A stretch of 64,000 nucleotides of DNA. Origin: Sulfurovum sp. AR (lineage in GTDB: Bacteria; Campylobacterota; Campylobacteria; Campylobacterales; Sulfurovaceae). Each line of letters begins with the position of its first letter. Positions within the stretch are counted from its first letter, which is position 1. The notes beneath the pieces are model-generated. The model saw only the letters and a program-made list of their open reading frames with translations. It ran no database searches and was not told where the DNA came from. Made by a program: the position numbers and the translations under genes. Shown in pieces: positions 35,447-59,995 of this stretch. The stretch is from assembly GCF_000296775.1 (NCBI RefSeq), contig NZ_AJLE01000003.1, forward strand, positions 124,001-188,000. Reading direction: 5' to 3'.

Positions 35447-36670
35447 TTATCTGAGTAGCTCAAGTATTATGGTTGAAAGCTGATTGAACTGGCCATCTTC
35501 TCTGAAAAAATCTTCTATAAAAATATCTATTTTATTCTTCAGTATATCCATATCATTTTCATCAATATCACTTTGAGAAATAATACTTTTTTTCCATGTC
35601 CATACCGTATTCCATTTTAATGCTAAGTTTTTACCTGGATTAAAATTCTTTAAATCTTTTAGCTTTCTAAAAATATCTTCTCTAAATAATTCATCCCCTG
35701 GACCGATGATTAATTTTAAAGTCAAGCCACTAGCAGTATAATAAAATTCATATAGTAATACTCTATCACTTTTTGTCCATTGCCCCTTGCCACTTTTCTG
35801 TCCAGGAATGTCGTCCCACCTTATATCAGCAAAACGAATAAGGTTTTTATTTGATAAATCAACTTCTACATGTTCATCTTGAAATTGACTCAACTTATCT
35901 TGTAGATAGTCACTAATCTCTGACTTAATATCAACTCTATAGTTATATAGAATATCCAGTGCTTTACTGTACTCTTTGTTTGCCCAGATTTTTTCACATA
36001 GTTCTTGAATCTCTCTATTTTCCACAATGTTCCTTCTTTTTAATAAATCCGTATAGCTTTCGAAAACCAACTTTGTATTTGATGATAATTCATTTTGTAT
36101 CAAAATATCCGTTATAATATTTGAAATCATTTCATAATCAGCTTTTAACCAATGCTCTTTTGAGGCATCATCAAAATTTGGTGTTAAAAAAATATAATAA
36201 ATATCGTATTTAGGATATTTGGACTTTACTTTTTTTTCATATTTCTCTAATTGTCCACCATCCTCACCATCTCTCCTTTCTCTAGAATAAACTTTATTTT
36301 CTATAACAAAAATTTTTTTATTTTTTTCATCTTCAATTAATATATCAATATCATCTCTTTCTCTATAGACATTTAAATTGTACTTAGTTGAAATATATAT
36401 ATACTCTTGCAATTTTTTATCATTACAATTATTCTTTAAATATATCTTTTTTAGAAAATCTATAAAAATTCCATATCCTTGATTATGTTCATTATCACCC
36501 AGCATCCAGGACAACACACTAGAATGTTTTATTTCTTGTGCCCCCATACCTGTAATTTCTAATACATTAAAATCTAAAAAACTTTGATTTATCTTTTGTA
36601 AATATACTGATATATCATCATTGTAAATAAAATTTTCTATCACAGCTAATTTATTTTCTGTTTTGCTCAT
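35447..36670 (-). CDS. PD-(D/E)XK nuclease superfamily protein (PDDEXK_4 type)
   Basis: 407 residues from the ATG at 36670, which has GGAGG 5 bases ahead. SSVLSWMLGDNEHNQGYGIF near 55 and the core RDDIDILIEDEKNKKIFVIENKVYSRE near 110-135 give the D...ExK nuclease pattern; QLEKYEKKVKSKYP and YYIFLTPNFDDAS follow as in PDDEXK_4 proteins. These often occur alone or near restriction genes. A GQKSGKGQWTKSDRVLLYEF stretch marks a C-terminal domain. Target unknown. Confidence 0.75.
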   Translation of the reverse strand: MSKTENKLAVIENFIYNDDISVYLQKINQSFLDFNVLEITGMGAQEIKHSSVLSWMLGDNEHNQGYGIFIDFLKKIYLKNNCNDKKLQEYIYISTKYNLNVYRERDDIDILIEDEKNKKIFVIENKVYSRERRDGEDGGQLEKYEKKVKSKYPKYDIYYIFLTPNFDDASKEHWLKADYEMISNIITDILIQNELSSNTKLVFESYTDLLKRRNIVENREIQELCEKIWANKEYSKALDILYNYRVDIKSEISDYLQDKLSQFQDEHVEVDLSNKNLIRFADIRWDDIPGQKSGKGQWTKSDRVLLYEFYYTASGLTLKLIIGPGDELFREDIFRKLKDLKNFNPGKNLALKWNTVWTWKKSIISQSDIDENDMDILKNKIDIFIEDFFREDGQFNQLSTIILELLR

Positions 36671-36866
36671 TGCCACCTCCAATATCTATTTTTAATGTAT
36701 TCACAATGCTTTTGTAAACTGCATTTTAAAATATTATAATCAATCGATGTAATATTTATATAACTTAAATTTTTTTTAAGATGATTACATTAATTATCCT
36801 CCTGGCAACTTAAATATTAAAATTACTCTATTTTATACTCTTAGAATACATAACTACTACATGTAT

Positions 36867-37070
36867 TTACACAAACATCACATATGGTGTCCATAGGTAC
36901 TTATCCATATTGTCTTTTACTTCATGTATATTCTGAGTTGCTACATTACCACTTTCATATACGATATGTATCTCATCATTAACCCTATAAGCATCAAACT
37001 TATGTTTTGCCATATCTTCGCCTGAACCTAGGTATTTACCTTTACCATATTCGTTAAATTGTTGTTTCAT
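36867..37070 (-). CDS. Small hypothetical protein
   Basis: 67 residues, MKQQFNEYGKGKYLGSGEDM start, beta-rich (KFDAYRVNDEIHIVYESGN). No family recognised. It lies 56 bases after the double AAA+ gene on the same strand and may be its small partner. Confidence 0.5.
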   Translation of the reverse strand: MKQQFNEYGKGKYLGSGEDMAKHKFDAYRVNDEIHIVYESGNVATQNIHEVKDNMDKYLWTPYVMFV

Positions 37071-37126
37071 TCTAGTGCCTTTTATTTATACTAATTTTTA
37101 CTGTACCTGTATTCTGTATATTCATA

Positions 37127-39247
37127 TCAAATAAATCCAATCTTATTAGATGATTCATTTTCTTTAACCAGGGTCTCTTCATTTAGTCTTTCTAAAAATA
37201 TCTCTGCACTCTTCAATGGTTTAAATCTACTCTGTCGTCTTACTGCTGCAAAATCACCAGGAACAAGTTGATTTAATCTTTGTATTTTCTGCTTATAGAG
37301 ATTTTTATCTTTTATATCCAATCCTAATATTTTGCATTCATCTCTAAAAAGTTTCCAGGCATGCTTAGGTTGTAAATAACCAAATTCTAGCTTCATATCA
37401 AACCTACGGAGACTTGCTTGATCCAATCCTGACATTAGATTCGTAGTGGCTATAAAAATTCCGTTAAAGTTCTCCATCTGAACCAGCATCTCATTGACTT
37501 GTGTCACTTCCCATGAGTTTGTAGCAGAGCGTCTATCTTGTAAAAAACTATCCACCTCATCAAATACCAGTACAGCATCTTCTTCTTTAGCTTCTCTAAA
37601 AGCATTAGCAATATTTTTCTCTGTTTCACCAACCCATTTAGAGATTAGATCACTACCCTTTTTGAGTAGAAATTGTTTATCAATATATTCTGCTATCCAT
37701 TTACCAAAAGCACTCTTTCCTGTACCTGGTACACCATAGAGACAAATTCTTGCATTAGGATGTTTGTTGATACCTTTAGCTAACTCTTTTAGATCTATAT
37801 CAGTATTAATATATTCAGGGTTATAGGATTTAGGAAGCATAAGAGAAGTGTCTTTTTTTATCTCACTGTAACCCTGTGCCTTTAATGTATTATTCAATAA
37901 ATGAGTAAAAGACTTTATGCTATTTTTACTCTTTATAGAATTTATTACTTTTGCTGTTTTAGATATAAGTGCTGGAGCTATATTTTCATTTTTTGCCAAC
38001 ATTTCAATAGTCTCTTGATTCAATAAATCATTACTGTATGTTTGTATAATTTCTTCTCTTTTGGATTTAGCAGGTATAGGGATCTCTATACTCATATCAA
38101 ATCTTCTAACTAATGCATTATCAATACTGTGGATATTATTTGTAATCCAAATAGTGGGAATCACATTAGTCTCCAGTACTCTGTTGATCCACGCTTTGTC
38201 TTTTTGTCGTTTAGGAGCAAAAAAGCCGCTATTACTTTCAAAAATATCTTCTGCCTCATCATACATAAGCAATGTTTTCTTATTCCCAAGCAATGCCTGA
38301 GCTGTTTTATATGCTTTTAATCTCTTGCTGCCATCTATAGGCTCACCATCTTCATCGGTATAGCTCACTTCAAAAAGATTTGTCTTTAAATATGATGACA
38401 AAACTTTTGCAAGTTCAGTTTTTCCTGTTCCAGGCAAACCATAAAAAAGAATATTAACACCACATTGTTTTGTAGCAATCACCTTTTTTAAATAAGGGAC
38501 TAAGATCTCCATATCTTTACTGATATGTGTATAATCTTTTATCGTCAACTTACTTTTCTCACAAGATTGAACAGAATCTTTTAGCATAACTGAAATATCT
38601 TCATTGAGGCTCAACATATTATCTATAAACTCATCACTGACAGAGTCAAGTTTTCTATCCAACGTATTTGTTGTATTTCTTTTATCCAATACTACTAAAG
38701 ATGATTTAACTAGTTTTGAATTTGTAGAAAAAGCCTTATCTATTTCATTTTTTGGAATATCTAAAATCACACCTAATACTTTTTTTACCCGGGTTGAGTT
38801 TAAATCATTCCCAAGTTGACCAACAGCAAGATCAAGTATGTCATACTGTTTTACAAGTATAACGAACTCAAGAATGGCTTCTTCGTACTTATTTAAGTGT
38901 ACTAAATTTGAAATTTGTCGTATATTAGTAGCTAATATTTCTGATGTAGTGAAGGTATTTTGTGTTTGTAATTTTCTGAGTTTATTTTTTAATTGTATTA
39001 ACACCTCTGCTCTATTATATTCGGATACATCCATATCAACATATTTACCAATATCTAAAAAGTAAGCTAATTTTTCTTCTGAGAGATAACCATTGGAGTC
39101 AATGAATTCTCTATGCCCACCAAGATTCAGTAAAATTCTTAATATCCAAAGAGATATCTTGTTTATAAGTTCTCGTTCTACAAAATCAGTTTTTTCAAAA
39201 CCTAATGATAAGTCAGGTAAATTTCGTCTTTGTCTTTTTATTCTCAT
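37127..39247 (-). CDS. Double AAA+ ATPase
   Basis: 706 residues from the ATG at 39247 (AAGGAG seven bases ahead). After a helical N-terminal region of about 250 residues come two AAA+ domains. The first has Walker A GLPGTGKTELAK near 270, Walker B LLMYDEAED and sensor ITNNIHSIDNALVRRFDM. The second has GVPGTGKSAFGK near 505, VGETEKNIANAF, LVFDEVDSFLQDR and ATTNLMSGLDQASLRRFD. The second is of the FtsH/spastin-like classic type and the first is diverged. Such ATPases remodel proteins in rings. Neighbouring nuclease genes suggest a role in an accessory, perhaps defensive, unit (inference). Confidence 0.8.
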   Translation of the reverse strand: MRIKRQRRNLPDLSLGFEKTDFVERELINKISLWILRILLNLGGHREFIDSNGYLSEEKLAYFLDIGKYVDMDVSEYNRAEVLIQLKNKLRKLQTQNTFTTSEILATNIRQISNLVHLNKYEEAILEFVILVKQYDILDLAVGQLGNDLNSTRVKKVLGVILDIPKNEIDKAFSTNSKLVKSSLVVLDKRNTTNTLDRKLDSVSDEFIDNMLSLNEDISVMLKDSVQSCEKSKLTIKDYTHISKDMEILVPYLKKVIATKQCGVNILFYGLPGTGKTELAKVLSSYLKTNLFEVSYTDEDGEPIDGSKRLKAYKTAQALLGNKKTLLMYDEAEDIFESNSGFFAPKRQKDKAWINRVLETNVIPTIWITNNIHSIDNALVRRFDMSIEIPIPAKSKREEIIQTYSNDLLNQETIEMLAKNENIAPALISKTAKVINSIKSKNSIKSFTHLLNNTLKAQGYSEIKKDTSLMLPKSYNPEYINTDIDLKELAKGINKHPNARICLYGVPGTGKSAFGKWIAEYIDKQFLLKKGSDLISKWVGETEKNIANAFREAKEEDAVLVFDEVDSFLQDRRSATNSWEVTQVNEMLVQMENFNGIFIATTNLMSGLDQASLRRFDMKLEFGYLQPKHAWKLFRDECKILGLDIKDKNLYKQKIQRLNQLVPGDFAAVRRQSRFKPLKSAEIFLERLNEETLVKENESSNKIGFI

Positions 39248-39492
39248 ATGCAACTCCTTCTTGATTTTTCAAGTATAGTATTGCTTTGAGACAGCATAAT
39301 GTCTGGTTTAATCAAATAAAGAAATAATTTACCACTTAGATCTAAAATAGGTATTTATAAAATAAAAGCATTAGTGAACTAACGAATAAAATAGAAATGG
39401 TTTTAACACTTTATGATAGAATTAAGACACTTTTCAAAAGGGAAGAAGTAGTTTTTACGACACTAGGCAAAATCTTTAATAAGGATGTAATA

Positions 39493-43354: not shown

Positions 43355-44116
43355 TTAAAACAAACTTGTTTTATATTTAAACTTATTATATTCTTTTGGA
43401 AGAAGTTCCAAAAGTTTTTCAAGTGGTATCGAATGTAAATCATATGTCATATCAAGCTGCTTAAGATAAACACCTAGTCTGCTTATTGATCCAGACCCTG
43501 CCGAACTACCACTTTTACCAATCCTCGAACTGGCTCCCTTTTTCAAAGATTCATTCTTTTCATCCCAGTAAAGTTTTTTAAGAAGTTTAATAATAGTTTT
43601 ATTACTTACCATACTTTGTCTTCCCATAACATTACCCATAAATTCTCCCATTTGATCAGGTCTTGTTTTCAGTAGAGGATAAGTATCTTCCAAATGATCC
43701 TGATGCATTTTGTAAATTAAGTAAGGGCCTAAAATTTTATGTTTGTAATACCTATTCCATATTGTGATCTCTGGAATATATGATATATTTGTTGATTCCA
43801 GTGCAATATTTCCGTTTTTATCTTTTTTAACTATTGATTCAAAATAAAAGAGAGATAGCCATGCCCAAAGATGTGTATCAGAATCTACATCTTTTCTATT
43901 TGGATTTTTTAAAATATTATCTATCTCCTGAAGCATTTCAAGCTTTGTTTCAAACTTTTTTTCAACAACTTCAATAGCCTCAGATCCATATGGTTCCGAG
44001 TATTCATCATCTTCAAGAATAAATTTAGGATACTCAGAGTTTTTTCCAGCACGAAGTTCGGATAAATATTTAGTAAATTGTTTTAGACCCAAATCTGTCA
44101 TTTTTTTTAAACGCAT
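43355..44116 (-). CDS. DUF6339 family protein
   Basis: 253 residues. RLKKMTDLGLKQFTKYLSEL at the start, LEDDEYSEPYG near 35, WAWLSLFYFESIV near 108 and YIPEITIWNRYYKHKILGPYLIY near 135 fit the DUF6339 pattern as I recall it. The C-terminal third (GASSRIGKSGSSAGSGSISRLG) is a Gly/Ser-rich basic linker followed by a helix. Members occur in bacterial restriction or defence operons; function unknown. Last of four co-directional genes with a GHKL ATPase, 3 bases after the preceding one. Confidence 0.65.
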   Translation of the reverse strand: MRLKKMTDLGLKQFTKYLSELRAGKNSEYPKFILEDDEYSEPYGSEAIEVVEKKFETKLEMLQEIDNILKNPNRKDVDSDTHLWAWLSLFYFESIVKKDKNGNIALESTNISYIPEITIWNRYYKHKILGPYLIYKMHQDHLEDTYPLLKTRPDQMGEFMGNVMGRQSMVSNKTIIKLLKKLYWDEKNESLKKGASSRIGKSGSSAGSGSISRLGVYLKQLDMTYDLHSIPLEKLLELLPKEYNKFKYKTSLF

Positions 44117-44119
44117 ATC

Positions 44120-44878
44120 TTATCCTTCCATCAATTTAGTATAAAGACGATTACAATCCAATCTTTTTGCAAATGTAGCTGTTGCCTGAGTTATCCAGTC
44201 TTTTATATCGGTGTTTTCTGCATCAATTGGCGGAGGTAAAGTTTGACTGCCCATTTCCTTTATAGCAAACTTATACCATAATTGAACCCAGTAATCTGTG
44301 TCTTCTTCATCGTAATCCAATTTTTCAATATAATAAATATGTGTGAAAATCTGATAGATTATTTGAGGAAAAACAAGAGCTCTGAAGCTGTCTGAAGTAC
44401 TAACATCACTTTTAATCTGATTACTGTTAATTAAAAGTACTGGGCCTGTATCAGTCATATCAAGAAACCAAACCATATCTTCAAGATTTTCAGACATGAT
44501 CGGCAACAATGAATCTCCAAGACCACTCTCATCATCATTCGGAGAACCGGCTTTCAGATTATCGACTTCGCCAAGTAACATACCAGTAGCAGGTTCAATA
44601 ATTTTAACACGAAATTGAATCTCCGAAGGATCATGAAATTCGGATAAAATATTTTTATGTGGTCTAAACTCAGGATTGGCAATTGTACCAAGAGAGAATT
44701 GCATATGTGTTGTAAGACGTTTTGCTTCAAGAGAGATCTCTGCTTCTTCCGGGAATTCATATCTTTCAAGATCAAGTGAATGTAAATAAAAACATAAATT
44801 CTTGTCATTCACAAAAGTACTTATCCCAATATCCGACTTTATAAGTTTCTGACGATGTGTATAATTAAACTTATGCAT
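44120..44878 (-). CDS. Uncharacterised protein of the GHKL operon
   Basis: 252 residues from the ATG at 44878 (GAGGA ahead), overlapping the end of the GHKL gene by 8 bases. Beta-rich first half (LCFYLHSLDLERYEFPEEAEISLEAK), an acidic middle with NDDESGLGDSLLP, then a helical second half (FRALVFPQIIYQIFTHIYYI). I recognise no domain. The tight coupling to the ATPase gene implies it works in the same complex. Confidence 0.6.
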   Translation of the reverse strand: MHKFNYTHRQKLIKSDIGISTFVNDKNLCFYLHSLDLERYEFPEEAEISLEAKRLTTHMQFSLGTIANPEFRPHKNILSEFHDPSEIQFRVKIIEPATGMLLGEVDNLKAGSPNDDESGLGDSLLPIMSENLEDMVWFLDMTDTGPVLLINSNQIKSDVSTSDSFRALVFPQIIYQIFTHIYYIEKLDYDEEDTDYWVQLWYKFAIKEMGSQTLPPPIDAENTDIKDWITQATATFAKRLDCNRLYTKLMEG

Positions 44879-46802
44879 TTTCAATCCTCTTTCGCGATAC
44901 ATCAACGGCAATATCCCTATTGGTGTCAAACCCTGTAACTGTTACTTTAAAATCATTATTGTTTACATTGAACAGAAGACGATTATGCTTTTTTTCATCA
45001 ATTGAGATTTCTCCTGACATTCCTGTTCCTATAGAAAATATTTTAATATCTTTCCCAAGTTGAAAATCAAGATGTGTCCATTGTTGAAAAGGATTGCCGT
45101 CTTTTGTTAGATATGCAAATTTAACTGCAAACTGCTGGGGCTCATTAATTGATTCATCAATACCTCTGATTATAACACCATTTGGAATTTCATCTATTGT
45201 GTATACCGGCTTGCTTATAGACCTTACTGGAATATCATCCTTCGTTTTTTTACTTTTGGGCTTTTTTTTCTGTTTTTTATTTGTACTTTCTTTTCCGTCA
45301 GGATTTGGTAATGGTGAAGGAAAGTAGTCACGAAGAGTGAGCACATCTTTTTCTGTATTTTCATCAGTTAGTTTAACAATGTCATACACACATCTTTTTA
45401 TAAAGTTTACATATGCCTTTGGATATTTATATTTTTGCATTTTTTCTGACCTGAACTGCCACTCTGTATGAGCAGGGTTTTCAGCATTCCCCATTAGAGT
45501 AGCAATACCTTCTTTTATATTGCAATCTTTATGATAAATATGTACAACTGACAATACATCACTGGCTTTACTTACAGATTTGGCAGGGTCGGGAACTAGA
45601 ATGCCTTCTCTTATGAAAACAGGTATTCCGTTGCCCAATTTTGAATTTTTCTTTATATATACATCAAAATAGCTTTCTACTACTGTATCATCAGTCATGT
45701 GGACATCTATAGGTATACGGACTGTGATTAACTCTTCATTGTGAAATTTTTCTTTCATCAACTCCAAATCAGTTTCAGATACCTGATCTTTGGTAATCCT
45801 TATTGTCTGTCCTATTTTCGGTTTTTCCAATTCAAAATACTTTTTGGTTTCTATCTGTTCAAGCGCATTACTACACATATTGATTATATTGACAATTTTT
45901 TCGCTTTTTTCAGGATCCTTGACATGTGTTTCAATTTTTTCAAGAAGATTATCACTGGTTATCACACAAGTATTGATATCGTCATATATTTCAACTTCAA
46001 GTTTATTAAAGTTAATAGGATGATAATATTCCTGGATCATGTATGAAATCAGACTCTCAATAGTTATATCCTCTTCCAAATAGGGAATAACAATACTTAG
46101 CCCAGGTTCATCATTTTTCCTTGAAACATTGAATGTATCTTTAAATAAAGCTATATCATCTGAATCGTCGATAGGCAAATTAACTTTTGGCTCATGTTTT
46201 CCCCACCATCCATCAGGTGAGAATGTATCATTATCTATAGTATGTGTTTTCAATACACTTTGACCGGAAAGATACTCTTTCCCATCATCTTCTCTGACCG
46301 TAAGTGCAAAAAAGGATTTTATGCGACTTGAACGGGGAAAAACATATTTACCAATCCCCCACCTTCCTCTATCCGAATCACCTTTACCTGATTTTCCTTC
46401 AGCACGTAAAAAATAGTAGAACCTATTCTCTTTGTTTGTTACACCATGATATTGAGTGACATCACCTGTAAGACCGCGTGTATTGAAGTCCTCAAATACC
46501 ATAAATCGGCATTTTTCATTTTCTATATCAGGTACATTTTCCAATCCGGAATCTTTGCTTTTAAAGTGTTGTGCAGCATCTGTAAAATAATGTTTTACTT
46601 CAGAAGGAGAAAGAAAGGCGCTCTCAGATGAGATATAAATCCGTATTTTTACTTTGTCTGATGTAGATTCATCAAGTGTATTTTGAGTACTTTCCCTAAC
46701 AAGTGCTTGTGTGTGTTCTTCAATATTTTCAATAGTAAAGAACGCATCCTGCATCGGATCACGTTCTTTATCGTCATCGGCCAATTTTTTATATCGCCAC
46801 AT
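44871..46802 (-). CDS. GHKL-type ATPase (MORC/MutL-like), defence-associated
   Basis: 643 residues. A Bergerat-fold ATPase fills about 1-230: HTQALVRESTQNTLDE (N-box with the catalytic Glu and Asn) near 30, MVFEDFNTRGLTGD (D-box) near 103 and GDSDRGRWGIGKYVFPRSSRIKSF (G-box) near 140. A central mixed domain follows, then a Lys-rich linker (NKKQKKKPKSKKTKDD near 510) and a C-terminal beta domain. MutL/MORC-like ATPases of this build occur in bacterial restriction-type operons. There are no histidine-kinase features. Genes before and after are coupled (12 bases; 8-base overlap). Confidence 0.8.
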   Translation of the reverse strand: MWRYKKLADDDKERDPMQDAFFTIENIEEHTQALVRESTQNTLDESTSDKVKIRIYISSESAFLSPSEVKHYFTDAAQHFKSKDSGLENVPDIENEKCRFMVFEDFNTRGLTGDVTQYHGVTNKENRFYYFLRAEGKSGKGDSDRGRWGIGKYVFPRSSRIKSFFALTVREDDGKEYLSGQSVLKTHTIDNDTFSPDGWWGKHEPKVNLPIDDSDDIALFKDTFNVSRKNDEPGLSIVIPYLEEDITIESLISYMIQEYYHPINFNKLEVEIYDDINTCVITSDNLLEKIETHVKDPEKSEKIVNIINMCSNALEQIETKKYFELEKPKIGQTIRITKDQVSETDLELMKEKFHNEELITVRIPIDVHMTDDTVVESYFDVYIKKNSKLGNGIPVFIREGILVPDPAKSVSKASDVLSVVHIYHKDCNIKEGIATLMGNAENPAHTEWQFRSEKMQKYKYPKAYVNFIKRCVYDIVKLTDENTEKDVLTLRDYFPSPLPNPDGKESTNKKQKKKPKSKKTKDDIPVRSISKPVYTIDEIPNGVIIRGIDESINEPQQFAVKFAYLTKDGNPFQQWTHLDFQLGKDIKIFSIGTGMSGEISIDEKKHNRLLFNVNNNDFKVTVTGFDTNRDIAVDVSRKRIENA

Positions 46803-46814
46803 TGCAATTACTCC

Positions 46815-47033
46815 TTATAATTTAAATTCGGTATGTTCTTCTTTAGAATTTTCCTCAAATCTCTTTTTTACATTTTTTACAGCATTGTCCAAAGCATTAA
46901 TTATTTTTTTATAATCTACTTCTGTGTATTCATAGTTATTTTTATTACTAAGATTTCCAATTAAGTGAATATCTTTTAAGGCTTTGGTTACTCTTTTTTC
47001 TGCAAGTTCTACAAATTTATCTCTAGATCCCAT
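46815..47033 (-). CDS. Small helical protein heading the GHKL operon
   Basis: 72 residues: SRDKFVELAEKRVTKALKDI, HLIGNLSNKNNYEYTEVD and a basic/acidic coiled helix to the end. AAGGAG sits 6 bases ahead of the ATG. I believe similar small proteins occur beside restriction genes, but no function is known to me. A 33-bp palindrome lies 53 bases upstream. Confidence 0.6.
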   Translation of the reverse strand: MGSRDKFVELAEKRVTKALKDIHLIGNLSNKNNYEYTEVDYKKIINALDNAVKNVKKRFEENSKEEHTEFKL

Positions 47034-47085
47034 ATTTTTCTCCTTATTTTAAAATTGTACTAATTATAACTATAAATGTCAACTG

Positions 47086-47118
47086 TATTTTTAAAATATA
47101 GTATATATTTTAAAAATA
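47086..47118. promoter_or_regulatory. 33-bp palindrome upstream of the GHKL operon
   Basis: Perfect 15-base arms (47086-47100 and 47104-47118; TATTTTTAAAATATA) with centre GTA, in the promoter region between the GHKL operon and the inverted McrC fragment. Likely a repressor site; A/T richness could also make it a cruciform. Confidence 0.5.
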
Positions 47119-47133
47119 TGTAAAAAATATACA

Positions 47134-47670
47134 TTGTTGGGAGCAGAGTATTACTCCAGTGGTACCAACAAAAAAAGAAGTAACAAAAGTAAATCACATG
47201 ACAGCACTTTACTTTGCCCGAACCGCCTGTATGAATGGTATGTTTATCAACAGATCATGACACCCGACAATCCTTATTTTAATATAAATAACTGCACTAT
47301 AAAATTTGATAAAATTAATTCAGCAACAAGTTCAAAATATACAATTTCAAGTGAAAAAGTTTACATATCCGAGCGTACATCCAATCCTGATTATATACTT
47401 GGGAATGATGATAAAATAATTATTATAGACGCAAAATGGAAAATTTTTGAAAATAACAGTGATAAGTCTTGTGGATTGAAAATTGAAGATGTAATCAAGC
47501 TTCAGCGTGATGTTGAACTAAGAAAAGATCCAAATGTACAAAAAGAGATCTATGCAGCTTTAGTATATCCAAAAGTTTTAGACAGTTACAAAAATCGGAT
47601 ATTCAAAATGAAGTATCCTTTCAATAATGATGTTTTTAACTTTAAAGTTATTGAAATTCCTTATTCATAA
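47134..47670 (+). pseudogene. Inverted C-terminal fragment of an McrC-like gene
   Basis: The frame encodes the last 178 residues of an McrC-like nuclease and is a near copy, on the opposite strand, of the end of the intact gene at 55392-56732. It lacks the first 260 or so residues. A short section near its start (SNKSKSHDSTLLCPN) is frame-shifted relative to the intact copy by an extra A in a run near 47169 and a compensating change before 47222. The nuclease core NPDYILGNDDKIIIIDAKW is kept. No promoter or start is evident. Confidence 0.85.
47222..47401 (+). repeat. 180-bp perfect inverted repeat, left arm
   Basis: Identical, base for base by my reading, to the complement of 55661-55840 inside the intact McrC-like gene, while flanking homologous sequence differs. 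Perfect identity inside diverged copies points to recent gene conversion or recombination. Confidence 0.85.
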
Positions 47671-47724
47671 TAGATCAATATATTATCTTTATCCTATGAA
47701 CTTTTCTACTAAAAGATTCCAGCC

Positions 47725-49179
47725 TTACACCCCAGAGCAATTTTTCAATGTTTTAATTCCTATATATTCAATTTGGGAATCAAGAACATTGTCATTACAT
47801 ATAATATCGGGCTCAATATCAAACAAATCAATGGGATCAGTATTTAATGACAAAGTATCAATGTTGTCAAGGTCAACTACGGATTTGTCGGCATAGACAA
47901 TGACCTTTTTAATATTCTTTTGGTTTGAGAGTTCTTTTGAATATGCTTTGTTAAACAGAATAGAATAAACCAATATTTGTCTTATATCAGCTTCGTTTAC
48001 TACTTTGTCTACGAGTTTATACTTTGCATCCATTATATGATACACTTCTGTACCTTCTATATCATCTTTAAGTAAAAAATCTGGATATTGTCTTTTTCTT
48101 TTTTTCCCATTCACTTTGACAAGAAAATTTTCATTATTCAGCTTTTTATCTTTCTTGCCCTTAAATGTTATTTGTTTATTTTTTTCATCTCCTATATACA
48201 ACTTTTCTGAGTAGTGTACCAGCTTCTGTTCTGTAATCTTTTCAAAAATTGTAGGCAGATCCAGACTTTGGAAAAACTGTACATCTTCACTTAATTGTGT
48301 ATAAAATATCGATTCAATCAATGTAAATATTTTTCTATTTCTTTTTATTTCTTTTTTGTTTTTGTTTTGTTTTAAATATTTTTCTAGACTGTCATTGTCG
48401 TTTTTGATACCATTATCTACCATATCCTTGTGGGTAGATATTTTAAGCAGAAGATTGTTTATTCTGTTAATCTTCTTGTGCAAGAATCCAAACTCTTCAT
48501 CGCATGTTGATCTGAATACCTCAATTCTGAATTTTTTCAAAAAGGACAGAATAGAATAGATAAAATGGATTAACTCCTTTTGATATGCAACTTTAATAAA
48601 CTGGTAGTTTTTCAGAGGGTTGCTTTCCAGTCTGTTCAGCTCATAAATCTCTATACCGATCTTCTTGTCACTGCATATCACTTTGTTGGCATGATGTGCC
48701 TTGTAATTTAACAGATAACTGTAAAGCCTATCCAGTTTGTCTATATAGAAGGCTGCTTCAAGCTGAAGAAAACTTTTTCCTCTGTCGTGGCGGAAAAGTT
48801 CCATACCCCTCTCTCCCAAACCTAGCTGGGAGTAGAGATTAAAAAGCTTAAAGGACAATTGTTCACATTTTTCTATCTTTTGTTCATCTGTATCTGTTTC
48901 GTTATCTTGGATATCCAGATCTTTGGGCAAAATATAAAGATGAAGAAAATATTGTTGATCATTTTCGTAAATACCATCGATATATGTTGTTATACTGCTT
49001 ATATAGCTTCTCTGCCTTTCCAGTGTAACTGAAAAAAAGTTCTTGTCCAAAATCTTTTTTATGAGATTCGGTGTGTTGGAAGGAAAAGTCTGTATTTTGG
49101 AATATACAGTTTCAATGTCATCTTCAAAGTCTTGTATGACAAGATATAAATGATTGTCTTTTTGATCAGTTAAAATCAT
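47725..49179 (-). CDS. McrC-like restriction subunit 1 (LlaJI R2-like)
   Basis: 484 residues. The N-terminal beta/helical half (about 1-250) is typical of McrC/DUF2357 proteins; the C-terminal PD-(D/E)XK nuclease contains YPDFLLKDDIEGTEVYHIMDAKYKL near 375 (D...DxK) and EADIRQILVYSILFNKAY. McrC partners with the McrB-like motor whose gene ends 9 bases upstream. It cleaves DNA when the motor translocates. It is only distantly similar to the second McrC-like protein in the window. Confidence 0.8.
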   Translation of the reverse strand: MILTDQKDNHLYLVIQDFEDDIETVYSKIQTFPSNTPNLIKKILDKNFFSVTLERQRSYISSITTYIDGIYENDQQYFLHLYILPKDLDIQDNETDTDEQKIEKCEQLSFKLFNLYSQLGLGERGMELFRHDRGKSFLQLEAAFYIDKLDRLYSYLLNYKAHHANKVICSDKKIGIEIYELNRLESNPLKNYQFIKVAYQKELIHFIYSILSFLKKFRIEVFRSTCDEEFGFLHKKINRINNLLLKISTHKDMVDNGIKNDNDSLEKYLKQNKNKKEIKRNRKIFTLIESIFYTQLSEDVQFFQSLDLPTIFEKITEQKLVHYSEKLYIGDEKNKQITFKGKKDKKLNNENFLVKVNGKKRKRQYPDFLLKDDIEGTEVYHIMDAKYKLVDKVVNEADIRQILVYSILFNKAYSKELSNQKNIKKVIVYADKSVVDLDNIDTLSLNTDPIDLFDIEPDIICNDNVLDSQIEYIGIKTLKNCSGV

Positions 49180-49188
49180 TATTGTTTA

Positions 49189-50949
49189 TTATATTTCATC
49201 TTCGTAGATATTAAGTTTGTGTAAAACTTTATACTTGTAACTGATCTCATCTGTAGTATAATCTAATTCTTTATCCTTAAGTTCTTTTTTGAGAAATGTT
49301 TTAAACCACTCATTGTCACTACTGCTATACATATTTGTGATTAAGTTCCAACCTATCTTGTTGATTTCACTGTTTTTATTGTTAAATCTAAGTGCATTCT
49401 TTATCATGCCAAATAAAAACTTGAAAACTTCAGCTTGTTTATTTGATTGACTAATTGGTTTTCCTTCCGAATCTACAATCTTCCACATACCAAAACAATA
49501 CTTCTCGTAATCAAATATGTTGTTTTTTTCAAGAATTAACCTTAGGTTAGTATTTAGTTTTTTACAACACTCAACAAAACCACTTTCATCATTTTCAAGA
49601 TCAAAAGTCTCAATAGGGTCTTTGTAAGTAATTTTTGCTCTGTCTTCCCAGTCTGCAAATATATTTAATGTATTTTCATTAAAGTTGGCCGCACCAAGTA
49701 AATAAAAATTTGAAGGGAATACAAGATTGAGTGACTCTCCTGATATTCTGTTTGTCAGTGGAACTTGTGGAATATCATTACAGTTGCTTTCAACAAAGTT
49801 GTTCCAAGTTTTTATGAACTCATCCGCATCAGCATAACTTGTTCTGGTGAATATTTCATGTTCTGTGTCAACTTTACCTATGTCTCTCATTTGCTGAGAT
49901 TTGAAAAGAGGTGTGTATTCAGACATCAAAGAAGAAATATCCTGATTGTGAAAGTCATCCAAAAATATTACATGAGGAACTTTTGGATTTGCAATTGCAG
50001 ACATTAGCACTTGCAAAAACTCACCAAATTTAATCTCTTCTTTTATAGGATCAAAAGTCAGTGCAAGATCTGTATTTTGTAGACCTTTGTATTCATTTCC
50101 AATACCTCCAGACACAGGTATCTTTTTGTATCTATAATTATCTTTATACTTAATATTTAAAAGTCTAGATTCTTCAAAGTTATAGCTTTTACCAGTATTT
50201 GGTTGTCCTATAACAAATTCAATATTTTTCCACTTCTTGTCAATTTGAGCTTCCTCTTTATATTCAATTTTTTTAATAAACGATTGAAACCTATCTTTAT
50301 CTAAATCTACAATATTGGAATCGTCTTCTATTTCTTCAGAAGGTTCATCAAAATCTTCATTTTTCATTTTTTCTACAAATTTTATGTATTGATTTAAAGT
50401 TTGTTGGATTTCTCCACCGCCACCTTTGCTTCTGTCCCATTCATAATTACTATGGCCTTTTTTTAAAGTATTTACAATATCTTTTAACTTATTTATATCA
50501 AAAATTTCAAAAATACTTATAGGATTTTCACTATCTAATCTCTCAGGCAAAATTTTATCTAAATACTCAATTCTCTTTTCAACTTTTTTTGTCTCTATAT
50601 TCCAATCATGATTAATATAATCTGCAAATAATTCTCTTATATCTTTTTGATTTTCTGTTCCTGTATTCTGTAAAATAAAGTCAATTTCATTCTTGTTTAT
50701 TTGAATAAGCCGGTTTGATCTTTTTGTTTGATAAAACAAAGTATATGGCAAATCAATATTTGTTGAGGAGAAGCTTTCATTTTCAATCAAATCACTACCA
50801 TCAAATGTAAACTGTTGAATCAGGCTGAAACCACCATTAATATTATCTTCTGAATAAACATAAATGGTATCGCCATTTTGTATACTCCCATAATTCTCTA
50901 AATCTTTTAAATTCAAGTTCTCTTTTTCTTTACATAGCCATATACTCAT
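49189..50949 (-). CDS. McrB-like AAA+ motor 1 (LlaJI R1-like)
   Basis: 586 residues. N-terminal domain SIWLCKEKENLNLKDLENYG to about 120 is shared with the second McrB-like protein. The AAA+ core has Walker A VIGQPNTGKSYNFEE near 245, Walker B HVIFLDDFHNQDI near 335, and a GAANFNENTLNIFADWEDRA sensor region near 425. In McrB-type enzymes the motor uses GTP, or ATP in some relatives, and powers the McrC nuclease. The ATG overlaps the stop of the recognition-protein frame by 4 bases (ATGA). Confidence 0.8.
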   Translation of the reverse strand: MSIWLCKEKENLNLKDLENYGSIQNGDTIYVYSEDNINGGFSLIQQFTFDGSDLIENESFSSTNIDLPYTLFYQTKRSNRLIQINKNEIDFILQNTGTENQKDIRELFADYINHDWNIETKKVEKRIEYLDKILPERLDSENPISIFEIFDINKLKDIVNTLKKGHSNYEWDRSKGGGGEIQQTLNQYIKFVEKMKNEDFDEPSEEIEDDSNIVDLDKDRFQSFIKKIEYKEEAQIDKKWKNIEFVIGQPNTGKSYNFEESRLLNIKYKDNYRYKKIPVSGGIGNEYKGLQNTDLALTFDPIKEEIKFGEFLQVLMSAIANPKVPHVIFLDDFHNQDISSLMSEYTPLFKSQQMRDIGKVDTEHEIFTRTSYADADEFIKTWNNFVESNCNDIPQVPLTNRISGESLNLVFPSNFYLLGAANFNENTLNIFADWEDRAKITYKDPIETFDLENDESGFVECCKKLNTNLRLILEKNNIFDYEKYCFGMWKIVDSEGKPISQSNKQAEVFKFLFGMIKNALRFNNKNSEINKIGWNLITNMYSSSDNEWFKTFLKKELKDKELDYTTDEISYKYKVLHKLNIYEDEI

Positions 50950-51603
50950 ATAATCTCCTCTGCTTTATCAAAACAATCACATTCCAATGTAGTATCATAT
51001 GGAACCCCTATAAATGTTTTATTACAGTTTTCTAGCGAATAAAGTGTAAATTGAGTAGATGATTTACCAAAAGTAATTGTTTCATCAAGTTTGTCAATTC
51101 CAAATTTACTCAAATAAACATCTGTAAATTCGTTTGGTACAATTCCAGCATTATTTGAACTATTTGGATGCTCAATCATAAGTCTGTACCTATTGTCAGA
51201 TCTTGATTTACGTTCTAAGATATATTTGTAAATAGATTCTGATTTAATAGATATATTATAGTTACTTCCATCTTCTACAATAAATATACTAATAATGTCA
51301 CCAGGTATAATTTGTTCAAGCTGAACATATTTTGTCAGCTGATATCTTAACTCTCTTGAACCTTTTGCAAAAAAAAGTATCATATTTTTTTCCAAGAATA
51401 GAATCAATTGTAGTAAAATGTATATTGGTTGTCTTACCTTTTATTTCTTGTCTAATAGTTGAATTGTTTATACTTGTAATACTTCCAGCCAATATACCAT
51501 TAAAAATTTTATTGAAGATTTCTTCTGAAGTTACATTGATATATTTATCACTTCCTGAATATTCACAAAGTTGACGATTTGCCACTGTTTTAAATATAAT
51601 CAT
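50946..51603 (-). CDS. Putative DNA-recognition protein 1, split by a frameshift at a T8 run
   Basis: The first frame starts at 51603 (MIIFKTVANRQLCEYSGSDK) and runs out of sense after DSILGKKYDTFF. The second frame resumes AKGSRELRYQLTKYVQLEQI and ends at 50946. Dropping one base of the T8 run (51369-51376, coding strand) joins them into about 218 residues. The joined product aligns without gaps across the junction to the intact paralogue at 58211-58882 (KKYDTFFAKGSRELRYQL / KEYTANISKVSNGIRFRI), and the ends match (FIGVPYDTTLECDCFD / YIGVPFNTILDVDCFD). It precedes McrB, so a specificity or recruiting role is inferred. A B3-like fold as in LlaJI is only a guess. Confidence 0.65.
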
Positions 51604-51660
51604 CTATATACTTTCCTACTTAGTTAGAAGATAGATAATATCCTGTTATTATTAAAGTTG

Positions 51661-53139
51661 TTATAAATTATTTTTAAAAATTTTGGCAAAAACCTGTGAC
51701 ATAAGCGGAGGAACCGCATTCCCTATCTGCATGTATGTTTTCAAATACGCTCCCATAAATATATAATCATCCGGAAAAGACTGAACTCTTGCAGCTTCAC
51801 GTGGAGTCAGACTTCTTGTTTGGGAAGGATGTATATGTGAATGACAGTCCATTTTCATGTGGGCTGTAATTGTTCTTGAGGGTTCATTTTCGATCAATTT
51901 AAAATATTTGTCTTTAAATACATGATTCCTGTGACTGTATGGCATAATGTCTTTTATTGACTCACAAGTTGAATCTGCACCTTGTTGCAATGTCTTGTAT
52001 ATTTTTATATTGTTTTCATTTTGGTATCGGGCTTTGTGATTGAAAGTAAAATCAAATTCTTTATTATTGTTAACCAGCTTCATATAGTCATTAGATTTGT
52101 TTTTATAAATATTTATGTCTATTTTCTTACCTGACAGCTCACAATCAATCTCTGTAGTATTTTTAATTGTTGGACACTCTAAAGGCTTTATATTTTCCAG
52201 TGCATCTTTTAATACATACCTTGGTTTGTTTTTAATCTCAGATTCAACCTCTTTCATAAGCTGGGACGGAGTTATATTGTGTTTTTTTGCATACACTCTA
52301 TTTACCCCTATATAAAGTAAACGTACTCTTTTTTGTGCAACAGAAAACTCACTGGAGTCAAACAGTCTGTATTCCACATCATAACCTATACGGTTGAAAT
52401 CTTCTACTACCTGGTCCGCAACTTTTATCATTCCTCTTACATTTTCCATAAGAACAAATTTTGGCTGTATTTTCTCAACTGCCTTCACATAATAGGTGTA
52501 CAGTACATTTCTCGGATCATCAATCACTCTCTGCTGATTCGCACTGCTGAAGGACTGGCAGGGAGGTCCCCCGATAATTACATCAATATCTGTGTCAACA
52601 TGATTGTCAATATTGTTAACTATCTCTTTTATGTCACCACTTAGAATTTTATCCGTACTGATATCTGGATGATTGTATTTGTATGTTTCCAGAGCTACTG
52701 GTTCAATATCATTGGCCAACTCAACTTTGTAACCCTCCTGTATAAAGCCCAAACTGAAACCGCCGGCACCACAAAACAAATCTATTATTTTTGGTTTGTC
52801 ACTTTTACTGCTTTTTGTCTGTTCTTCCTGTCTGTATGAGTTATAAAATTTGTTTAGAAACTGCCAGTTTTGTTGTGAATATATTGTCAGGCTTTTTCTC
52901 AAAACATCAAATTCTCTGCCCAGTATTTTCCGAGCTGTTCCTATATCTTCTTTGTTTTCGATAAAACCTATTTTTACCAGTTCGGCAAATACCCTGTCTT
53001 CATCTGCAACAACAGCATTAAAATCTATATTCTCTTTTAGACAATATTTTTTAACCAGTTCATTTATGATATTGATTTTTTCTATAAAGAATTTCTTCTC
53101 ATTTTTTTCTGTTAACTTGTTTACATTTTTAAAAAGCAT
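51661..53139 (-). CDS. DNA cytosine-5 methyltransferase 1
   Basis: 492 residues. An N-terminal helical extension of about 110 residues precedes the catalytic domain: IIDLFCGAGGFSLGF (motif I) near 117, GGPPCQSFSSANQQ with the catalytic Cys (motif IV) near 190, MENVRGM (motif VI), FSVAQKRVRLLYIG (motif VIII), a variable target-recognition region and IGNAVPPLMSQV (motif X). It methylates cytosine at the C5 position to protect host DNA. It lies 7 bases after the second methyltransferase gene; a pair of m5C enzymes suggests an asymmetric recognition site with one enzyme per strand, as in LlaJI. Confidence 0.95.
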   Translation of the reverse strand: MLFKNVNKLTEKNEKKFFIEKINIINELVKKYCLKENIDFNAVVADEDRVFAELVKIGFIENKEDIGTARKILGREFDVLRKSLTIYSQQNWQFLNKFYNSYRQEEQTKSSKSDKPKIIDLFCGAGGFSLGFIQEGYKVELANDIEPVALETYKYNHPDISTDKILSGDIKEIVNNIDNHVDTDIDVIIGGPPCQSFSSANQQRVIDDPRNVLYTYYVKAVEKIQPKFVLMENVRGMIKVADQVVEDFNRIGYDVEYRLFDSSEFSVAQKRVRLLYIGVNRVYAKKHNITPSQLMKEVESEIKNKPRYVLKDALENIKPLECPTIKNTTEIDCELSGKKIDINIYKNKSNDYMKLVNNNKEFDFTFNHKARYQNENNIKIYKTLQQGADSTCESIKDIMPYSHRNHVFKDKYFKLIENEPSRTITAHMKMDCHSHIHPSQTRSLTPREAARVQSFPDDYIFMGAYLKTYMQIGNAVPPLMSQVFAKIFKNNL

Positions 53140-53146
53140 ACTCTGT

Positions 53147-54376
53147 TTAATCCAATTGTGTCAAATATTTTTTTAGTACACTTGCAATGGTCTTTGCCAA
53201 CAGTGGAGGTACAGCATTCCCTATCTGTTTGTACTGCTGAGTTTTGGAACACGGGAAGACAAAGTCATCCGGAAAAGACTGGCATCGTGCAGCTTCTCTA
53301 GGGGTAAATGTTCTTTCCTGCGTATGATCAGGATGTATAAACTGGTTGCCGTCCTTATATAAATGTGCAATAATGGTTTTTGATGGCATATCAAATCGCT
53401 GAACAACATAACTGTTGTTGAAAAGTCTTTTTTTAGGGTGTTTCAACTCTGGTTTTTTATCATACAGTTCACCCAGTGTCCAGTTGTTCTTACTCATTAG
53501 TTTATATCTCTTCTTGTCCAGATCATTATGAGTTCTGGCAACATGGTGATGTAGTTTTTCGTAATTCTCTGACCGGATCTTTTTTAGATATTCATTCGTT
53601 TTTTCAGGGATAAAATCAATACAGTCTTCACCCTGTCCTGCTTTTAGTTTGGGCAGATCGGCCAACGCATCCTGAACTGTCACTTTTGGTTCATTTTTCG
53701 ATATTTCTGCCAGATCTTCATATATTGCTTTTGGATGAATGTCTATATCCTTTCTCACCCCAATGATAATAACTCTCTTTCTTTCCTGAGGTATACCGAA
53801 ATCCGAAGAATTTAAAACAATCTCTGATTTCTCTTCGACTATATTGTAGTTTTTCTTCATATCCTTCATAATGGTTTCTATAATTTTTTTGCCGTTTATC
53901 TCTGTTGACAACAGTCCTGTCACATTTTCAAAAACAAAAAATTTGGGGCGGTAGTGATTTAGAATCTTCAGATAACTCTCATAGAGATAATTTCTGGGAT
54001 CACACTTCATGGAGTGTGGATCTCTTGCTTTTCCCTGTGACGAAAATGATTGGCATGGTGGACCACCGATAATTATATCTACGTCATTACCCTTTACAGA
54101 CTTGTCCATTTTTTCAATAATGTCTTTGGATGTAATATCCTCACACAAAACACCATGTTTTATGTCTTCCTCATCATATCCGTAATGCTTCATTCTGTGT
54201 CTCAGTGTATCACAGGCATATTTGTCAAATTCTATATGGGAAAGTGCCTTATACCCTTCCTGGTAAAACCCTTCCGCAAATCCTCCTGCCCCGGCGAACA
54301 GATCAATGAATGTCAAAGGTTTTTCATTTGAAGACTTTTTGTTTTCTTCAGATGTTCCACTGTATGAAATAGTCAT
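53147..54376 (-). CDS. DNA cytosine-5 methyltransferase 2
   Basis: 409 residues. Motifs: FIDLFAGAGGFAEGFYQEGY near 22, GGPPCQSFSSQGKARDP near 103, FENVTGLL, FGIPQERKRVIIIG, the target domain, ARCQSFPDDFVFP and IGNAVPPLLAKTI. Lacks the long N-terminal extension of its neighbour. The ATG overlaps the stop of the controller gene (TAATG), so translation is coupled to it. Confidence 0.95.
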   Translation of the reverse strand: MTISYSGTSEENKKSSNEKPLTFIDLFAGAGGFAEGFYQEGYKALSHIEFDKYACDTLRHRMKHYGYDEEDIKHGVLCEDITSKDIIEKMDKSVKGNDVDIIIGGPPCQSFSSQGKARDPHSMKCDPRNYLYESYLKILNHYRPKFFVFENVTGLLSTEINGKKIIETIMKDMKKNYNIVEEKSEIVLNSSDFGIPQERKRVIIIGVRKDIDIHPKAIYEDLAEISKNEPKVTVQDALADLPKLKAGQGEDCIDFIPEKTNEYLKKIRSENYEKLHHHVARTHNDLDKKRYKLMSKNNWTLGELYDKKPELKHPKKRLFNNSYVVQRFDMPSKTIIAHLYKDGNQFIHPDHTQERTFTPREAARCQSFPDDFVFPCSKTQQYKQIGNAVPPLLAKTIASVLKKYLTQLD

Positions 54377-54624
54377 TACTTTTCACCTTCCTTTTGTGTT
54401 TCTTCCCATAGTCTTACTATATGTACAATATCAGCATCATCCAGATTTGACAGCATATCGAGCAGGGTTTTCATGGCAAGAGGAGCAATTCCTCCTCTTA
54501 GATATTCTCCATAGGTTCTTGGATTGACCCCTATATAGTCTGCCATATCCTGATATTTATAGTCCCTGCTGTTTTTAACTTCAATGGTACGATGAATCTG
54601 TTTTAAAATATCTTTTAATTCCAT
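54376..54624 (-). CDS. Controller-type helix-turn-helix protein
   Basis: 82 residues. YKYQDMADYIGVNPRTYGEYLRGG at about 23-46 is a clear helix-turn-helix of the XRE kind; helices surround it. The gene leads the methyltransferase operon and three palindromes lie just upstream, as with C proteins that time methyltransferase before nuclease expression. No endonuclease domain. Confidence 0.8.
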   Translation of the reverse strand: MELKDILKQIHRTIEVKNSRDYKYQDMADYIGVNPRTYGEYLRGGIAPLAMKTLLDMLSNLDDADIVHIVRLWEETQKEGEK

Positions 54625-54644
54625 AAATAGATTATATCCATAAT

Positions 54645-54721
54645 TACATTAAAATGTATTTATAATACATTATATTAAATTAAATATACATTTAAATGTA
54701 TTTATTATACACATTTAATGT
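54645..54721. promoter_or_regulatory. Three palindromic boxes upstream of the controller gene
   Basis: TACATT-AA-AATGTA (54645-54658), TACATT-TA-AATGTA (54687-54700) and ACATT-T-AATGT (54711-54721). They lie 21-97 bases ahead of the controller start, the arrangement of C-boxes. Confidence 0.6.
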
Positions 54722-54839
54722 AAATAATTTCTTTTCCAAATACTAATGACATCAATGTTACCAATTATATACTGATAATTTTTGTCCTGTTAAAAATATG
54801 TCAAATTGTCATACTGGTGAGAATAATAACCTATTAAAA

Positions 54840-55256
54840 CTAAAGACTGTAAAATACAGCTTCGATTTTATCTGCACAATCTAATAAATTTTTTCGGATA
54901 TCTGCTTCCCAGAAACGCAAAACAATCCATCCCTTATCTTTTAGTTCTTCATTTACTTTTTTGTCCCGTTCAATATTTCTTGTGATCTTTTTGACCCAGA
55001 ATTCGGTATTCGTTTTTGGGATATATTTTTCTTCAAGCAGATACTTTCCATGCCAAAACTCAGAGTCTGCGAATACTGCCAGTTTTTTCCCTTTAAAGAC
55101 TATATCTGGTTTCCCACAAACATCTTTTGCATTTTTTTGATATCGCAATCCTCTTTTCCAAAGTTCTTTCCTCAAGAGAATTTCAATAGACGTATCTTTG
55201 GATTTAATACGACGCATATTTTCAGAACGGCCTATTGGTTGTTTCTTTCTTTTCAT
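54840..55256 (-). CDS. vsr: Very short patch repair endonuclease (Vsr)
   Basis: 138 residues. RSENMRRIKSKDTSIEILLR, LWKRGLRYQKNAKDVCGKPDIVFKGKKLAVFADSEFWHG and FWEADIRKN match Vsr. The metal-binding Asp lies in KPDIVF and the general base region in FWHG. Vsr nicks at T:G mismatches that arise when 5-methylcytosine deaminates, so it belongs with the m5C methyltransferases. The usual VDGCFWHG is ADSEFWHG here; the lost Cys suggests that the structural zinc site differs. Confidence 0.9.
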   Translation of the reverse strand: MKRKKQPIGRSENMRRIKSKDTSIEILLRKELWKRGLRYQKNAKDVCGKPDIVFKGKKLAVFADSEFWHGKYLLEEKYIPKTNTEFWVKKITRNIERDKKVNEELKDKGWIVLRFWEADIRKNLLDCADKIEAVFYSL

Positions 55257-55391
55257 CAGCTAATTTTAACATAAAAACATGATTACTGAAAAATTAGTAC
55301 ATTTTGAAGTTTTTATAAGAATTTATGCAAAATTCTGGCCAATATTGATTTAATAAGGAAAGGCTGAAAAATTAGGATAATATTGTTGTTA

Positions 55392-56732
55392 CTATAGATA
55401 AGGCACTTCAATAACTTCAAAGTTGAAAACATCATTGTTAGAAGGGTAATGCATTTTAAATTCCTTATTTTTGTAACTCTCTAAAACTTTTGGAAATATC
55501 AGAACTGCATGGATCTCTTTAGAAATATCCGGGTTTTTTCTTATTTCAACATCACGCTGAAGCTTTATTACATCCTCTATTTTCAAACCGTGTGACTCAT
55601 CACTGTCATTTTCAAAAATTTTCCATTTTGCATCTATAATAATTAATTTATCATCATATTCAAGTATATAATCAGGATTGGATGTACGCTCGGATATGTA
55701 AACTTTTTCACTTGAAATTGTATATTTTGAACTTGTTGCTGAATTAATTTTATCAAATTTTATAGTGCAGTTATTTATATTAAAATAAGGATTGTCGGGT
55801 GTCATGATCTGTTGATAAACATACCATTCATACAGGCGGTCCGGCGCAAAATAAAGTGATGTCATATGACTGACTTTTGTTACTTCTTTTTTGTTGTCAC
55901 CACTGGAATAATACTCGACTCCCAATAATGTGAGTAATGCATTATAGAGCTTACGATATTTATTGTCTTTTTTGAACAGTCCACTTATTTTCTCTTTTGT
56001 TATATCTTTCGTTTTAAAAGAAAAGCTCTTATCGGACACAAACTTATTAAGGATAATATGTTTAGTCAAACTCGCAAATTTTCTTGTTTCTTTATTTTCA
56101 GGGATACCTGAGGGTACTCTATTCTTTAAAAAGTATTCCAATGAACTGATTGATATAAATGCCAACTTCGAATATAAAACAGATACATATTTGTCCTGGT
56201 GTATTTTCGACTTATCCAGTTCTCTTATATTTTTTCCAAGATTAATTTTATGTTTAACTGACTGTGAGGTATATGAAACTAGTTTGGACGTATTTTTATT
56301 ATGTTTCTTAAAAAAGCTTCTAATTGTTTTTAACGCATCAAGATATTTAAGTTCTATCAAATCATCCATATTATTGACATGTTCAAGTGGTGAATTGTTT
56401 TCCAAAGCCATATCAACAATATTTGAATTTATAACTTTTGGATTTATCTTAGGATTATCTTTTTTTAATTCATAGTAGTTTTTTACAAATGAAAAAAAAT
56501 AGCTTTTATTTGTTTCATCATCAGACTTTTTATAGATTTTAGGAAGTACATAGATTTTGTAGTAATAGCTTTTTTCTTTAAACTGATAATATCCGATTAA
56601 ATTGTTATTTGATTTCTTGACAATCTCTTTTATATTTTTTCTAGAAATATCAGACAAAGCAATTTTATTATCATAAAAATAATCTAGGAGATTTTCATTT
56701 TCATTAAAGAAAAGTGTCTTTGTATAAATCAT
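55392..56732 (-). CDS. McrC-like restriction subunit 2
   Basis: 446 residues. An N-terminal region of about 240 residues and a C-terminal nuclease (SNPDYILEYDDKLIIIDAKWKIF near 355; LKIEDVIKLQRDVEIRKN) with the D...DxK signature of PD-(D/E)XK enzymes. This is the intact relative of the inverted fragment at 47134-47670. It follows the second McrB-like gene by 6 bases and ends the three-gene set 58882-55392. Confidence 0.82.
   Translation of the reverse strand: MIYTKTLFFNENENLLDYFYDNKIALSDISRKNIKEIVKKSNNNLIGYYQFKEKSYYYKIYVLPKIYKKSDDETNKSYFFSFVKNYYELKKDNPKINPKVINSNIVDMALENNSPLEHVNNMDDLIELKYLDALKTIRSFFKKHNKNTSKLVSYTSQSVKHKINLGKNIRELDKSKIHQDKYVSVLYSKLAFISISSLEYFLKNRVPSGIPENKETRKFASLTKHIILNKFVSDKSFSFKTKDITKEKISGLFKKDNKYRKLYNALLTLLGVEYYSSGDNKKEVTKVSHMTSLYFAPDRLYEWYVYQQIMTPDNPYFNINNCTIKFDKINSATSSKYTISSEKVYISERTSNPDYILEYDDKLIIIDAKWKIFENDSDESHGLKIEDVIKLQRDVEIRKNPDISKEIHAVLIFPKVLESYKNKEFKMHYPSNNDVFNFEVIEVPYL
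55661..55840 (-). repeat. 180-bp perfect inverted repeat, right arm
   Basis: Complement of 47222-47401; see the left arm. It lies within the C-terminal nuclease part of the McrC-like gene 2. The spacing of the arms is about 8.3 kb. Confidence 0.85.
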
Positions 56733-56738
56733 CTTATT

Positions 56739-59994: not shown

Positions 59995-59995
59995 C

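Follow-up and report, generated by a model that had tools for sequence, protein, structure and literature searches.

A four-gene paraMORC2-like ATPase module beside a C5 methyltransferase restriction locus in Sulfurovum sp. AR

Gene layout and identity of the ATPase

The window, that is, the whole stretch of DNA analysed here, comprises 64,000 nucleotides of Sulfurovum sp. AR (contig NZ_AJLE01000003.1, positions 124,001 to 188,000) and carries four tightly packed minus-strand genes between 43355 and 47033, in the order SML-ATPase-MID-D63. SML (46815-47033), the first gene of the module, encodes 72 amino acids and is followed after 12 bp by a gene for a GHKL ATPase of 643 amino acids (44871-46802). 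MID (44120-44878) overlaps the ATPase gene by 8 bp and encodes 252 amino acids from an ATG start; a TTG at 44929 is a possible alternative start giving a longer protein. D63 (43355-44116), 3 bp further on, encodes a DUF6339-like protein of 253 amino acids. All four genes are intact with conserved motifs, and each of the four proteins has homologues in distant phyla encoded in the same order, so the module is more than chance. The four coupled genes that an earlier note, made from the sequence alone, had placed at 43355-47118 are thus indeed present.

A promoter-like site, TTGACA-N17-TACAAT, lies on the minus strand at 47054-47082, about 20 bp before SML, and matches the consensus at 11 of 12 positions. 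In the promoter scan overall such sites were no commoner than in shuffled sequence; this one is the best of them and its position is fitting. Given the near-consensus site ahead of SML, the module is probably transcribed on its own. Just upstream, within 47086-47118, is a 15-bp perfect inverted repeat, which is AT-rich and may be due to chance.

The GHKL boxes of the ATPase are intact (E37xxQN41xxD44, E104-D105xxT108xG110L111xG113 and G146xxGxGK152), and their residues are conserved in about 80 to 86 of 86 aligned ATPase sequences. The assignment to MutL- or MORC-like GHKL ATPases made in the earlier note therefore stands, and the motifs for ATP binding are intact in sequence. Later in the protein is an ExxxH motif, E441/H445, both residues of which are found in 86/86 aligned homologues. 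This motif is the mark given for paraMORC2 in those sections of Iyer, Abhiman and Aravind (2008, PMC2292703) that define the family and its restriction-modification setting, and the ATPase resembles the family as described there in its GHKL motifs, in its invariant ExxxH and in the absence of the MORC S5 motif. That motif of MORC proper, GhXhhpXXRhl, occurs in 0 of the 86 aligned sequences, and MORC proper was rejected as the identity of the ATPase. Among the PADLOC models, PDC-M33A matches at an E value of 7.3e-22, the best stretch being residues 30-319. No Pfam model matched the ATPase; none of the four proteins reached the cut-off of any family in Pfam, NCBIfam or PHROGs, sequence-to-PDB profile searches with all four were empty or at chance level, and viral contigs searched with the ATPase held no relative. 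A related protein from the same genus has weak matches to Sacsin and HATPase domains, consistent with the GHKL assignment. Judged by motif, the ATPase belongs to paraMORC2, and the module, as far as sequence and gene order can tell, is a divergent member of the uncharacterised PADLOC candidate PDC-M33 (A/B/C). What had been taken for an undescribed defence arrangement is thus already known under these two names.

The likeness to PDC-M33 lies in the same three-gene order, in the match of the ATPase to the A model and in homologous loci that match B and C; the differences are that MID and D63 of the window miss the B and C models and that SML lies outside the PADLOC models. MID is equated with PDC-M33B by position. 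The assignment of MID and D63 rests mainly on synteny, because the window copies are too divergent for direct matches. Plasmid-borne relatives of MID and D63 match PDC-M33B and PDC-M33C, with E values of 6e-30 and 1e-31 for homologues in Arthrobacter, and profile-profile comparison with PDC-M33 is weak for D63. The relationship of D63 to DUF6339 seen in the earlier note holds. The window protein itself does not reach the curated cut-off of Pfam DUF6339 (PF19866), but its syntenic homologues match weakly in two loci (L003, 0.0095; L005, 0.017) and clearly in Arthrobacter (L098, 3.9e-34), relatives in homologous loci carry the DUF6339 annotation, and profile-profile agreement is full length yet weak (E 0.002, probability 13%). 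D63 thus appears to be related to DUF6339 only distantly.

The structure prediction proposed for MID yielded an N-terminal beta sandwich, fn3-like weakly at best, and C-terminal helices (predicted local distance difference test, pLDDT, 89). D63 is modelled confidently (pLDDT 93) as almost all-helical, with no known fold match. Foldseek searches of both against PDB, and of D63 also against BFVD, returned no structure with an E value under 0.001. D63 contains a conserved basic, glycine-rich stretch, K192-R213, and its conserved polar residues are H126, K192, R213, Q220, D226 and E242. A question arises, could one of these proteins hide a nuclease? If MID or D63 did so, alone or jointly with SML, the module would be a complete restriction half and would form, with a methyltransferase and in some cases Vsr, a full restriction-modification system. 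The polar residues of D63 would suit such a role, yet no PD-(D/E)XK, HNH-like, GIY-YIG or HKD pattern is conserved in the MID and D63 sequences, candidate nuclease motifs were rejected on that ground, and the confident models match no known nuclease. The earlier note, in which no nuclease was recognised among the four genes, agrees with this, and we regard a hidden nuclease as unlikely.

Partners of the module in homologous loci

A single-sequence ATPase search of genome contigs returned nothing, whereas an alignment of the window sequence with three distant plasmid homologues (four rows), searched against species genomes, returned 271 relatives, from which 80 loci were kept. First-pass counts among the loci examined were 85 for the ATPase, 62 for MID, 69 for D63 and 10 for SML. 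The order ATPase-MID-D63 is conserved in proteobacteria, planctomycetes, bacteroidetes, chloroflexi, actinobacteria, nitrospirae and others. A C5 methyltransferase is present in 36 of the 80 loci (22 of the 34 with full flanks), and Vsr in 26, all of which also have the methyltransferase. In 21 loci the methyltransferase lies at most 1 kb from the module, in some of them overlapping D63; in L072 and L079, for example, both genes are on one strand and the methyltransferase start reaches 4 bp into D63.

Nearby restriction genes vary and include EcoRII-C, Mrr, AIPR, type II restriction endonucleases, AlwI, MutH/Sau3AI, Z1 with DUF4420 and, in Acetoanaerobium, a type I-like system assigned by eye from sequence; AbiG, AbiE-like, Shedu and Hachiman-like genes are also found. 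The neighbourhood survey suggested in the earlier note thus bears out the restriction context. Dependence on the McrBC-like neighbours, which the same note had considered, is plausible, but homologues stand beside many other partners, and therefore the common denominator is the C5 methyltransferase, often with Vsr, and not McrBC. The company of AIPR, AbiG, AbiE-like, Shedu and Hachiman-like genes, the promoter-like site of its own and the 12 of 34 full-flank loci devoid of a methyltransferase could also be explained if the module were an independent and complete defence system, abortive or DNA-blocking, and simply tended to collect in defence islands close to restriction genes. However, a methyltransferase adjacent to or overlapping the module in many unrelated phyla is more than defence-island clustering easily gives, making this explanation rather improbable.

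Z1 and DUF4420-type genes accompany the module in 3 of the 80 loci (L037, L064 and L067, with AIPR too in L037). A version with Z1 helicase and nuclease does therefore exist, as the earlier note had stated and as in L067 with Z1 and DUF4420, but the Z1-less form, considered there as a possible minimal variant, is the usual one. Could the module in Sulfurovum be what is left of a Z1 helicase/DUF4420/AIPR restriction system after loss of the helicase and the nuclease? The three loci would allow it; against it stand their small number, the intact genes with conserved motifs, and a search of the host genome that found neither AIPR nor Z1, the latter with a positive control detected in C. glutamicum. 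Such an origin was rejected given that no Z1 was found in the genome, and we hold it to be very improbable. Restriction-modification systems of the Z1 (CglI/NgoAVII) type (PMC4267653) share with the present locus a methyltransferase and nucleotide-using restriction subunits, and a few loci combine Z1/DUF4420 with the module; here, a GHKL ATPase takes the place of the helicase.

In five loci (L008, L038, L075, L081 and L083) only the module, a methyltransferase and Vsr, with small unidentified open reading frames in some, lie between nearby housekeeping genes, namely mutS2 in L008, ilvD in L038, polyprenyl synthase in L075, glutamate dehydrogenase in L081 and ubiA in L083. These nuclease-poor units favour the reading in which MID or D63 conceals a nuclease.

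The adjoining restriction locus and the proposed role

Upstream of the module, 47725-58882 contains two paralogous McrB/McrC-like sets that flank Vsr and two C5 methyltransferases, bearing out the adjoining restriction locus of the earlier note. In order from the module, all on the minus strand, these are McrC-like nuclease subunit 2 (47725-49179, PD...DAK motif at residue 366), McrB-like NTPase 2 (49189-50949, Walker A GQPNTGKS), C5 DNA methyltransferases 2 (51661-53139) and 1 (53147-54376), the Vsr mismatch endonuclease (54840-55256), McrC-like nuclease subunit 1 (55392-56732, PDYIL...DAK) and McrB-like NTPase 1 (56739-58214, AAA_5 at 1.2e-6, GVPGTGKS). Each set has a small upstream protein (50946-51407 and 58211-58882), and the two are related to each other. 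No further C5 methyltransferase or Vsr turned up when the whole genome was searched. Like LlaJI (PMC1459862), the locus pairs two C5 methyltransferases with restriction subunits resembling McrB and McrC; it differs in having two McrB/McrC pairs, Vsr and an attached GHKL module.

All the C5 methyltransferase and Vsr genes found in the genome thus belong to the LlaJI/McrBC-like locus next door, and the module is more likely to be coupled to this locus than to be a degraded Z1 system. We consider it fairly probable that the four genes, as a paraMORC2 (PDC-M33-like) module, supply the ATP-driven part of a restriction-modification system based on C5 methylation, with a clamp licensed by methylation. 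The GHKL ATPase would dimerise like MutL or MORC and form a clamp or loop on DNA; Iyer et al. 2008 (PMC2292703) proposed DNA looping for the paraMORC2 group. In this model SML would accompany the ATPase as a small co-subunit, and MID and D63 might be the subunits that contact DNA or the target. We infer that host DNA would be licensed by the C5 methyltransferase or methyltransferases, whereas on unmethylated incoming DNA the ATP-closed clamp would stay loaded and either block the DNA or pass it to a nuclease; candidates in this genome are the adjacent McrBC/LlaJI-like complexes and Vsr. The linkage to a C5 methyltransferase and Vsr resembles the methylase/Vsr/endonuclease neighbourhood given for paraMORC2 in the sections of PMC2292703 on that family; SML, MID and D63 are not described as fixed partners in those sections, and the neighbour here is a double McrBC/LlaJI-like locus.

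Several observations weigh against this proposal. A methyltransferase is missing from the DNA covered in 44 of the 80 loci, partly on short contigs, and from the 12 full-flank loci mentioned above; the linkage figures are raw counts, uncorrected for background. MID has no significant profile-profile match to PDC-M33B, and the open-licence literature yielded no experiments on PDC-M33. Moreover, the promoter-like site and an intervening gene fragment set the module apart from the restriction operon, which weakens the case for its coupling to the operon in this strain. The fragment, McrC-like and on the plus strand (47171-47672), repeats 55390-55892 in inverted orientation at 89% identity and points to rearrangement between module and operon. 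An inversion might take place across this repeat, or the repeat may be a trace of module shuffling.

In eukaryotes, MORC-type ATPases silence transposons, and their presumed ancestors are bacterial relatives linked to restriction. In the open-licence literature we found no reports testing a bacterial paraMORC2 module and no papers on PDC-M33 or DUF6339; subscription papers were not covered, and earlier experimental work is possible. How a GHKL clamp restricts DNA can be tested directly on the loci that consist of just the module, a methyltransferase and Vsr.

A genome of the same species does not contain the module. It lacks the region 39.3-47.8 kb, except for a 170-bp stretch at 71%, which fits a mobile defence locus. 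The two genomes stop being colinear near 28.2 kb, some 1.2 kb beyond tRNA-Met, and 58-64 kb gave no match in a comparison without a positive control. Further defence candidates lie in the same island at 35447-39253: one protein resembles PDC-S26 (6e-84), and another is a double-AAA ATPase with similarity to IetA. A reverse-transcriptase-like open reading frame just inside the island boundary (28420-29190) is possibly retron-like or akin to diversity-generating retroelements. By eye, 59575-60352 shows a PIN-like open reading frame with a small upstream partner, a possible toxin-antitoxin pair, and 61420-62313 one whose C-terminus resembles GIY-YIG and which may encode a homing-type endonuclease.

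SML and its association with other GHKL ATPases

SML carries the conserved motif (R/K)EKFxxLAExRVxxALKxIxLIGNLSNRxNYEYT...FKL. Its homologues are 36-60% identical to the window copy, a conservation equal to or above that of its module partners, and no PADLOC model matched it. A six-frame profile search yielded 24 SML stretches, of which a few represent the same place more than once. Among the 80 paraMORC2 loci, about 10 have SML just upstream of the ATPase, and in one of these, L007, a further gene intervenes.

Searches started from SML place it next to GHKL ATPases of other families as well. In Ensifer it lies beside an 800-amino-acid protein, called GHKL by motifs only, with McrB/McrC-like and methyltransferase genes; in Agrobacterium, Dinoroseobacter and Rhizobium it lies beside proteins of 615-621 amino acids with weak HATPase_c_3 matches. 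In a member of the window's order it is downstream of a 741-amino-acid GHKL ATPase, adjoined by MutH-type and C5 methyltransferase genes. By manual count, 10 of about 14 non-redundant loci found via SML rather than the ATPase have an adjacent GHKL gene. It is conceivable, albeit doubtful at present, that SML is a shared co-subunit of several unrelated GHKL ATPases and that paraMORC2-MID-D63, with or without SML, suffices together with a C5 methyltransferase (and in some cases Vsr) for restriction-modification; restriction would then be the work of a MutL-like clamp in place of a classical endonuclease, either blocking DNA or directing Vsr. SML would then give a small conserved handle on several GHKL ATPases. 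In the literature we found no earlier description of two features, the presence of SML beside several unrelated GHKL ATPases and the nuclease-poor combination of the module with a methyltransferase and Vsr.

In a same-genus relative (L107, 9031-14031), SML is followed by PDC-M33A-like, MID-like and D63-like genes and then by a gene resembling phosphoadenosine phosphosulfate (PAPS) reductase, with AbiE-like genes, recognised by eye, upstream of the module. On plasmids of Agrobacterium (L093) and Dinoroseobacter (L094), SML and a 621-amino-acid GHKL gene lie upstream of a Gabija-like pair, an ATP-binding protein and a UvrD helicase; in L093 they adjoin the pair, and in L094 one gene intervenes. 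Finally, gp47 of Synechococcus phage S-CRES1 (L111, 4989-5267) is an SML homologue (hhalign 97.7%). No GHKL gene is annotated near it; some 5 kb away is a gene annotated as S-adenosylmethionine hydrolase, an enzyme type known to counteract restriction. Possibly, gp47 is a counter-defence decoy against GHKL restriction modules.

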